Position numbers and translations under genes: made by a program. Below, in pieces: positions 8,866 to 12,638 of a stretch of DNA of 64,000 nt. Below the pieces are notes generated by a model. It saw nothing but the letters and a program-made list of their open reading frames with translations, was not told the DNA's origin and ran no database searches. Source of the stretch: Polyangiaceae bacterium (GTDB lineage Bacteria; Myxococcota_A; Polyangia; Polyangiales; Polyangiaceae); contig CANJMI010000003.1 in NCBI GenBank assembly GCA_947475525.1, positions 207,501 through 271,500 on the forward strand. The letters are read 5' to 3'. The first letter of the stretch is position 1. Every line of letters begins with the position of its first letter.

Positions 8866-9525
8866 GTGAACGAGATCGAAACTTCGCTTGAGGCCCTTTT
8901 CTCCGCAGAACGCGAATCGCGTCGCATCCACGATGAGCTGGCGAATGCAGCCGTGAACGATCGCTCCGCCATCATGGGCGCGTTGGTCGCGGTCATCGTG
9001 CAATCGAAGGAACTCGAGGACGAAAGCGAAGGCGCGATTCGCCTCGTTTCCGCTGCGCGGTTGCTCGGGGAACTCGACGGCGGCGACGTCGTCGATGCAT
9101 TGATCGACGTGCTCGATTCGGACATTCCGGATGCTCGCAGCGAAGCGGGAGAGCAACTGCAGGGCCTTGCGTACGATCGCTTCAAGGAAGTCGCGCTCGG
9201 TGTGGAGCGTGCGCTCGTGCGGCTCGGTGAAGGGTCGGCCGCATTGGTCGAGCTCCCGTACCTTCTGGTGGACATTCCGGAGGGTGGCGTCGTCAAGTTG
9301 CTCGGGATGTTTTTGCAACATGCCGACCCCGACGCTGTCGCTGCGGCGATCGAGACGCTCGTAATCCTCGGCGATGCCTCGGTGACCAAGCTCCTTCTCC
9401 CGCTGCAGGGCGACAAGCGCATCAGCGTGATTGGCGAAGACGAGGAGCAGAACGAAGTCACTGTTGGCGAGCTCGCGATCGAAGCCATCGAGTTGCTCCG
9501 GCACAACGAGAGCCCGTCCGAGTGA
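8866..9525 (+). CDS. HEAT-repeat-like cytoplasmic protein
   Basis: 219 aa from a GTG start. It is almost entirely helical, with repeating Leu/Ala-rich helices such as AIRLVSAARLLGEL, DVVDALIDVLDSD and AIETLVILGDASVTKLL, as in HEAT-type scaffolds. No signal peptide or membrane segment is seen. Such proteins usually mediate protein contacts; no partner can be named. It lies 98 bp from the divergent LytM-like gene and converges on the TssM-like gene with a 30-bp gap. Confidence 0.65.
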   Translation: MNEIETSLEALFSAERESRRIHDELANAAVNDRSAIMGALVAVIVQSKELEDESEGAIRLVSAARLLGELDGGDVVDALIDVLDSDIPDARSEAGEQLQGLAYDRFKEVALGVERALVRLGEGSAALVELPYLLVDIPEGGVVKLLGMFLQHADPDAVAAAIETLVILGDASVTKLLLPLQGDKRISVIGEDEEQNEVTVGELAIEAIELLRHNESPSE

Positions 9526-9555: not shown

Positions 9556-10644
9556 TCAGTGCGCCAACGTGAACGCGACCCACAGCACGGCCACGACAAT
9601 CCAACTTACCAACGCGAAGCCGCCGAGCACGAGCGTGAGCTTGTCATCTCGCCAACGCTTCGTAGTCGGCACGATGTCGCGCTCGGGGAGCAAAACTTTT
9701 TCGAGAATTGCGTGCAGTGGCATGCCGCCCGGCTGCCGTGTGCCGCTTTCCCTAGGCGGCGAATACCCCATGGCCGCGAACTGATCGGCGCGGTGACGAA
9801 GCCGCTGGCCCGTGCCGGGAACGCCGCTGCCGAGCGCGAGCGCGCGCATCCAAGGTGAGCGCTCGAATGCGTTTTGCGCCGTGAGGATCGACAGCACCTC
9901 ACCCGTTTTGGTGACCAGATCGCGCAGCTCCGCCAGGTGTTGGTACGCCCGGGCGCGCACCTCTGGATGTTCCTCGGATGAGAGCTTCGAAAAACAGGTC
10001 GATTCGAGTCTCGCGAGCAGTCCGTCGAGCTCGTGCTGAACGCGCTCGGTCACGCTCTGACCCCGCACGCCGTACGGCAACACGAAGCCCCAGGACTCTT
10101 CAGTTGCGCGCTCGGCGGTCCATTGAAAAGCGTCACCAAAGCCCCACAACACATCAATACCGGTGAGGAAAACGTATGTCGGAACGTCGGCATCGAGTGC
10201 TTGCCCCACCTCGACGAGGTAGCGCCGTAGCGTCTTCGCGTAGCGGTCGAGGGCTTCTTCGGTTGCGTCTGCGAGCACCCGCGCATCCACGACGATCAGC
10301 ACCCCGTCGAGTGGTTCACGCCGGCGTTTGACCTTCAACTCCTGACACAATTCCATCAGCGTCTCGGGCACCCGCCCAAGCCCGACGACGGAACGTCCTG
10401 GCTCGATGAACACGGCCTTTTCAGGGAGCCAGTACTGGCAGAGCTGACCCGGTACGTTGGTGGCGAGTGGCTGGTCGCCGTGCGGCCAGCTCACGTTCAG
10501 CGAGCGGATGAGCGTCGTGCGACCGGTCTGAGGTTCGCCGAGCACGAGGTACCAAGGGACCGCGTAGAGGGGATCTTTTGCGCTCGGGTGAAGCTGTCCC
10601 TGGACAGCGCCGAGTGCCGCGAGTTCGTAAGAAAACGTGGTCAT
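9556..10644 (-). CDS. Truncated TssM/IcmF-like protein (N-terminal GTPase domain plus one TM)
   Basis: 362 aa from ATG 10644. The ATG overlaps the stop of the TssL-like gene (ATGA), so the longer frame to 10731 is not used. PWYLVLGEPQTGRTTLI matches the Walker A region of TssM, with Arg in place of the invariant Lys. GVLIVVDARVL is the Walker-B-like strand, and the KRRREPLDG segment also fits TssM. One hydrophobic segment, LVLGGFALVSWIVVAVLWV, is at the C-terminus. Full TssM is about 1100 aa with a large periplasmic domain, all of which is missing here. With TssL it would form only an inner-membrane stub. Function unknown. Confidence 0.7.
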   Translation of the reverse strand: MTTFSYELAALGAVQGQLHPSAKDPLYAVPWYLVLGEPQTGRTTLIRSLNVSWPHGDQPLATNVPGQLCQYWLPEKAVFIEPGRSVVGLGRVPETLMELCQELKVKRRREPLDGVLIVVDARVLADATEEALDRYAKTLRRYLVEVGQALDADVPTYVFLTGIDVLWGFGDAFQWTAERATEESWGFVLPYGVRGQSVTERVQHELDGLLARLESTCFSKLSSEEHPEVRARAYQHLAELRDLVTKTGEVLSILTAQNAFERSPWMRALALGSGVPGTGQRLRHRADQFAAMGYSPPRESGTRQPGGMPLHAILEKVLLPERDIVPTTKRWRDDKLTLVLGGFALVSWIVVAVLWVAFTLAH

Positions 10645-11273
10645 AAGACGAACTTCACAACGCCAGCCGCGATCGCCGCCAAGAACAGGATGGCGCCGGT
10701 GGCTCTCGCGACCCAGAGCGACTCGTACCACGGACCGTCCGACGCCTGCGCCGCGGCGGCGTCTTCCTGCCGCACCTCGCGCAACACGCCACTATGCCAG
10801 TCGCGATCGGGGTCGACCCCCAGCTGCCGCGACAAATCTCGACGCAATTGGGTCAGCACATACCGGTCTTGACCAGGAAGTGCGTAGCTTCCGGTGAATC
10901 CCAATCCGAGAACCGCGGCGTAGGTCGCGACGACGCTCGTTGGGCCCTGTCGCACGCGAGCGAGTCGCTGGAAGACTTCGACGCCGCCATTGTTCGTGTT
11001 GAACCGCGTGGCCTGGAGCATGTACTGGCTCCACAACGGACGAAGGTCGGGCGCGCCCATGGCCATCTCGTCGATAAGCGCGCAAAGAGCGAATATACCG
11101 TCTTCGGCGCTCTGCACCGGGAGGGCGAGCGCCTCGCGGGAACGCTTCAGCTCATCGAGCAGCCAATTCGCGTGCTGAAGGACGAATTGAGGCTGTGGCC
11201 GCTGGGGACATTGCCGCAGCAGGCAGATCCACAAAAGCACATCCTGGCCAAATACGCCGATCGACTGTTCCAC
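10641..11273 (-). CDS. TssL/DotU (IcmH)-family inner-membrane protein
   Basis: 210 aa from GTG. The DotU-like helical cytoplasmic domain includes SAEDGIFALCALIDEMAMG, LWSQYMLQATRFNTNNGG and EVFQRLARV. It ends with one C-terminal transmembrane helix, the usual topology (cytoplasmic hook, C-terminal anchor). No OmpA-like extension follows. In type VI and IVb secretion, DotU/TssL partners IcmF/TssM, and here a short TssM-like gene follows with a 4-nt ATGA overlap. No sheath, tube, VgrG, baseplate or ClpV gene is in the window. It diverges from eno with about 80 bp between starts. Confidence 0.8.
   Translation of the reverse strand: MEQSIGVFGQDVLLWICLLRQCPQRPQPQFVLQHANWLLDELKRSREALALPVQSAEDGIFALCALIDEMAMGAPDLRPLWSQYMLQATRFNTNNGGVEVFQRLARVRQGPTSVVATYAAVLGLGFTGSYALPGQDRYVLTQLRRDLSRQLGVDPDRDWHSGVLREVRQEDAAAAQASDGPWYESLWVARATGAILFLAAIAAGVVKFVL

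Positions 11274-11300: not shown

Positions 11301-12638
<1,338 letters not shown>

Follow-up and report, generated by a model that had tools for sequence, protein, structure and literature searches.

The membrane complexes of type VI secretion systems (T6SS) are usually regarded as all-or-nothing anchors, and canonical TssM carries two N-terminal transmembrane helices (TM1-2) and a third helix, TM3. Nucleotide-binding motifs occur in some TssMs only (PMC9972734), and the TssL of enteroaggregative Escherichia coli (EAEC) is known to have a C-tail anchor (PMC3426401). In Legionella, DotU and IcmF localize to the cell pole and stabilize the Dot/Icm machine (PMC7029142). Here we describe a tssL gene and a short tssM gene found in a 64,000-nucleotide stretch of DNA from a Polyangiaceae bacterium (the window; contig CANJMI010000003.1, positions 207,501 to 271,500). 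The pair is a conserved inner-membrane module of one Polyangiaceae clade and not a broken gene. It lacks the periplasmic half of the anchor, its GTPase motifs are degraded, and it is retained throughout the clade beside a complete T6SS. The literature searched contained no account of a TssL/short-TssM pair of this kind.

The pair consists of two open reading frames on the minus strand of the window, at positions 10641-11273 (TssL/DotU of the short form, 210 aa) and 9556-10644 (short TssM, 362 aa when counted from the ATG inside the overlap), which are coupled through an ATGA stop/start overlap at 10641-10644. TssL matches PF09850 (E = 3e-28) and scores 91 bits against TIGR03349, barely above the cut-off of 89.95. 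Short TssM contains the IcmF-related_N domain (PF14331, 1.6e-49; 169 bits with a cut-off of 25), but against the whole-protein equivalog TIGR03348 it reaches 181 bits, under the cut-off of 388, and covers only model positions 104-450 of 1168. The coordinates and both Pfam families agree with an earlier sequence-only reading of this DNA, in which a DotU/TssL protein was coupled by ATGA to an IcmF/TssM-like protein of this length. In the orthologs, the junction is mostly an ATGA or GTGA overlap; in the remainder the two genes are separated by a few bases.

Short TssM is composed of a GTPase-like cytosolic domain and one C-terminal TM helix (residues 338-356, positions 9577-9633, minus strand; Kyte-Doolittle 2.52), which falls within a confident AlphaFold helix at residues 331-361. 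TM1-2 were not found, leaving one TM helix in total, and a Pfam scan of the window protein did not detect the periplasmic IcmF-related, helical, and IcmF_C domains, which include the TssJ contact. The length of the orthologs leaves no place for these domains. In the window, the convergent HEAT-repeat gene ends at 9525, 31 bp from the stop of tssM, and thus no periplasmic coding sequence follows. The retained GTPase-like domain, the single TM helix, and the missing periplasmic arm had all been recognized from the letters alone, whereas the loss of TM1-2 had been overlooked. Since TM1-2 and the periplasmic domains are missing, short TssM, as judged from its sequence, cannot form the usual TssJLM envelope channel, in keeping with the earlier statement that the pair is unable to build the usual membrane complex.

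The AlphaFold model of short TssM (mean pLDDT 79) shows a G-domain, then helices, then the TM helix. The nearest solved folds are translation-factor- and Ras-type (TRAFAC/Ras-like) GTPases, with VIA Z values of ~11-12; no TssM entry was among the fold-search matches listed, which does not exclude TssM, and a PDB sequence search with a TssM profile gave no significant match. The best match to the TssL model is TssL of Acinetobacter baumannii (6y4r; E 1.4e-4, TMt 0.77), and it also matches EAEC 3u66, Vibrio cholerae 4v3i, and Francisella DotU 4ack. Like the short-form TssLs of T6SS (6y4r, 3u66, and 4v3i), the window TssL has a hook-like helical fold, a full-length DotU domain, and a C-tail anchor, the latter being a high-pLDDT helix at residues 186-209 (positions 10647-10718, minus strand). 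By prediction, TssL and short TssM each have one C-tail anchor in the inner membrane and a folded domain in the cytosol.

The GTPase motifs of short TssM were compared with those of full-length TssMs in MAFFT alignments. The P-loop (G1) of the window protein reads GEPQTGRTT (residues 36-44, positions 10513-10539, minus strand), and across the short forms GPPGAGKTT is changed to GEPxxGR[ST]. The sequence-only reading had pointed to this Arg; it is exact for the window but not universal, as the Walker-A residue is Arg in 26 of 30 carrier genomes and Lys in the other 4, one of which belongs to the genus of the window. Because Lys persists in these 4 genomes, the Lys-to-Arg change taken alone is a weak argument. 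The stronger one comes from G3 and G4, whose alteration had been missed. In all short forms examined, E(P/A)x stands in place of the DTAG of G3, whereas the TKxD of G4 has lost its Lys and kept its Asp. In the window these motifs are EPG (residues 81-83, positions 10396-10404, minus strand) and TGID (residues 161-164, positions 10153-10164, minus strand), with E81 and D164 invariant in alignment A1. In this clade, TssMs of full length and of mid length have G1, G3, and G4 intact, so that the degradation is limited to the short form. In the absence of G3 and of the Lys of G4, hydrolysis of GTP or ATP by short TssM appears unlikely from its sequence.

Short TssM thus resembles T6SS TssM (TIGR03348/PF14331) in its cytosolic IcmF-N GTPase-like domain, in the adjacent TssL, and in one TM helix at the place of TM3. 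It is unlike T6SS TssM in lacking TM1-2 and the IcmF-related, helical, and IcmF_C domains, in its missing G3 and missing G4 Lys, in a G1 that mostly carries Arg, and in the location of its gene outside a T6SS cluster. By the features examined, the pair is TssM-like and TssL-like, yet stands outside the TssJLM complex family.

The distribution of the pair was determined in 290 genomes of the class, in a wider scan of 84,980 species, and in 108 Polyangiaceae genomes. Close relatives of short TssM (43-76% identity) among the class genomes are confined to the family of the window; the remaining matches are TssMs of ~20-30% identity, mostly long. The 84,980-species scan found the short-TssM family in Sorangium, Polyangium, Minicystis, Byssovorax, and Polyangiaceae metagenome-assembled genomes (MAGs). 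Two near-identical contigs from groundwater MAGs, labeled Deltaproteobacteria and Desulfarculus, were found as well; one of them is genome G290, which is assigned to the same family as the window. The pair is carried by 30 of the 108 Polyangiaceae genomes, and short TssM has ~350-385 aa in every complete copy. In the carriers, tssL adjoins the enolase gene divergently and is coupled to tssM, with the exception of one genome in which tssM is split over two contigs. No TssL or TssM match was found at the 30 enolase loci of non-carriers that were read. A single branch of the enolase tree (SH-aLRT 99) divides carriers from non-carriers, and the history of the pair is one gain with no loss seen. 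For the window compared with its closest relative (L043), the Nei-Gojobori ratio of nonsynonymous to synonymous substitutions (dN/dS) is ~0.12 for short TssM and ~0.08 for TssL. Both genes are under purifying selection, and their position next to enolase is fixed; this degree of conservation had been underrated. The low dN/dS and the retention in 30 of 30 carriers rule out an inactive relic.

In a tree of N-terminal domains, the short TssMs group in a single clade (SH-aLRT 100), whose branch of 4.6 changes per site lies outside all sampled full-length forms. The exact sister of this clade is not fixed by the tree because long branches meet there. The TssLs of the short pairs are likewise separate from the T6SS TssLs in a clade of their own, and within the genome of the window the identity between the TssL of the pair and that of the T6SS is ~23%. 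Truncation of TssM is recurrent: independent orphan TssMs of 625-627 aa occur in another family of the order (L126:3880-5757, L127:3758-5641, and L129:3693-5570), where they adjoin an acyl-CoA dehydrogenase gene and have no TssL.

The genome of the window (5.15 Mb, 59 contigs) has only two DotU genes, the second of which lies on contig C7 inside a T6SS locus, and two IcmF proteins besides short TssM, on C7 and C10. The T6SS on C7 is complete, with TssB, TssC, TssA, TagF, TssM, TssL, TssK, ClpV, FHA, Hcp, TssE, and TssF. Its TssM has 1248 aa and the IcmF_N, IcmF-related, helical, and IcmF_C domains. The sheath genes that the sequence-only reading had suggested looking for are therefore present. 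That reading would also have been overturned by a complete T6SS elsewhere without its own TssL and TssM; the C7 system has both, and the pair is therefore not an orphan remnant, nor does it stand in for a TssL/TssM that the resident T6SS would lack. Full-length TssM was found in 28 of the 30 carriers, and the remaining two are MAGs that are 86% and 89% complete.

Beside tssC of this T6SS, on the opposite strand, a 655-aa protein joins a partial TssB (VipA) to a partial TssC (VipB) (C7:191350-193314, plus strand; L006:6351-8318) and is apparently a sheath paralog that is both truncated and fused. Its orthologs have at least 41% identity in the same 30 genomes and 32-37% in ~11 other Polyangiaceae; since non-carriers have it too, it was rejected as a specific part of the module. 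A weak TssC-like match in a 608-aa frame (C6:160727-161611, minus strand) possibly belongs to a different contractile system.

A second orphan TssM of ~965 aa (mid TssM) was found beside sucCD-type genes at C10:31519-34413 (L063:7517-10414). It has the IcmF_N and IcmF-related domains and lacks IcmF_C and the helical domain, and the same domain set was found in 8 of 8 further copies scanned. Like short TssM, it is TssM-derived, C-terminally shortened, and encoded outside the T6SS cluster; unlike short TssM, it retains TM1-2, GPPGAGKTT, DTAG, TKxD, and the first periplasmic domain. Its dN/dS for the same genome pair is ~0.10. The genome distribution of mid TssM (~970-1000 aa) is identical to that of the short pair (30 of 30), with 29 copies near full length and one partial at a contig edge (G264). 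The description of the pair as an orphan thus stands for the position of the locus, which is outside the T6SS cluster, but not for the genomes, where sheath genes and mid TssM always accompany it. In the N-terminal-domain tree the mid TssMs branch next to the clade's own T6SS TssM, as duplication would give. The adjacent 233-aa protein F3 was ruled out as a specific partner of mid TssM, being present in 100 of 108 genomes irrespective of carrier state. In Sorangium, Polyangium, and Chondromyces (L064, L066, L067, and L072-L074), an MglA-like GTPase of 196 aa and a 160-aa protein, possibly of the roadblock type, are encoded a few genes from mid TssM.

A different inner-membrane role, as first proposed for the pair, is plausible. 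We favor a passive, accessory inner-membrane platform or regulator, derived from T6SS and facing the cytosol, that would bind mid TssM or cytosolic components of the T6SS, and assign this explanation a probability of about 0.4. It is favored because the pair keeps the cytosolic side used by the T6SS anchor and has lost the periplasm-spanning part, and because DotU and IcmF serve another machine in Legionella, a non-T6SS use that the pair parallels. The partners and the effect of the pair we infer as follows. A TssL-TssM gene pair would have been duplicated, would have lost its T6SS envelope function, and would then have been fixed as an accessory module in one Polyangiaceae clade. Contact between TssL and short TssM may involve the cytosolic faces that also meet in T6SS, and the resulting passive platform would retain cytosolic components of the T6SS, such as the baseplate protein TssK and Hcp, or compete for them. 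The pair might also, or instead, provide the missing TssL to mid TssM, which has no TssL gene adjoining. In doing so, it could modulate the docking of the resident T6SS, either its site or its occurrence. The pair probably works with the resident T6SS and/or mid TssM, and the co-occurrence in 30 of 30 genomes with mid TssM and the sheath genes fits a functional link. Published TssMs disagree on what the cytosolic half of the anchor does, be it baseplate recruitment, positioning, or nucleotide switching, and the pair, in which this half stands by itself, offers a natural test of the question.

Several points weigh against this explanation. All carriers fall in one clade, and the co-occurrence therefore counts as one evolutionary event. 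The mirror-tree partial correlations of short TssM are 0.82 with mid TssM, 0.70 with canonical TssM, and 0.57 with its operon partner TssL; since that between mid and canonical TssM is already 0.86, most of this signal is probably due to a common species history. The pair also adjoins a housekeeping gene and is remote from the T6SS cluster.

The platform nevertheless ranks ahead of a T6SS-independent landmark, a decoy inhibitor, and a separate reduced complex, in that order. By analogy with Legionella, the pair may have been freed from secretion and become a membrane scaffold or localization factor for something else, which we regard as possible but the less probable of the two. Across genera only eno-tssL-tssM stays together while the other flanking genes differ, G1, G3, and G4 are degenerate, the stem branch is very long, and the polar DotU/IcmF pair likewise serves a machine other than a T6SS. 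However, T6SS sheath-family genes are kept in 30 of 30 carriers and occur in ~35 of 78 non-carriers, about half of which are thus without them. The Legionella proteins also differ in having a periplasmic domain, and the profiles of the type IVB secretion system were far under their cut-offs (NCBIfam IcmF_IVB, 30 of 1000 bits; IcmH_DotU_IVB, 12.8 of 50 bits).

A decoy, in which the pair draws TssK or Hcp away from the genuine membrane complex and holds down T6SS assembly while metabolism is active, would account for cytosolic faces that persist where a channel is impossible and motifs are degenerate, and for the constant linkage to eno. We consider it unlikely, and a consensus scan found no sigma-70-type promoter.

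Less likely again is a distinct reduced envelope complex of mid TssM, TssL, and short TssM without outer-membrane contact. The two loci co-occur in all carriers, no DotU-family gene lies beside mid TssM, and one of the genome's two DotU genes belongs to the T6SS locus, but the loci are unlinked, the shared profile reflects one clade, and mid TssM could share the canonical TssL. Put more broadly, as a T6SS-exapted, non-secretory inner-membrane machine separate from the T6SS and combining mid TssM and TssL with a pseudo-GTPase short TssM, such an assembly is somewhat less doubtful, though still improbable; it would be specific to a clade of Polyangiaceae that comprises Sorangium, Polyangium, Chondromyces, Minicystis, and relatives. 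A frameshift in or after tssM is what the sequence-only reading had named as refuting it. A frameshifted, truncated, or decaying pair or an assembly error has only the short length in its favor and can be dismissed given 30 orthologous loci that are uniformly short with the same ends, the low dN/dS, and the 31 bp to the next gene.

The neighbors of the pair in the window are housekeeping or uncharacterized genes, including those for SSB, a response regulator, the HEAT protein, DUF362, ketopantoate reductase, and enolase (Enolase_N/C; 11355-12638, plus strand). As had been stated, no further type VI gene was found among the ten Pfam-scanned neighbors. A terminator-like hairpin with a T-rich tail, of a kind no more frequent than in shuffles, is located in the leader of tssL, on the side of eno (11301-11325, minus strand), and is a possible attenuator.
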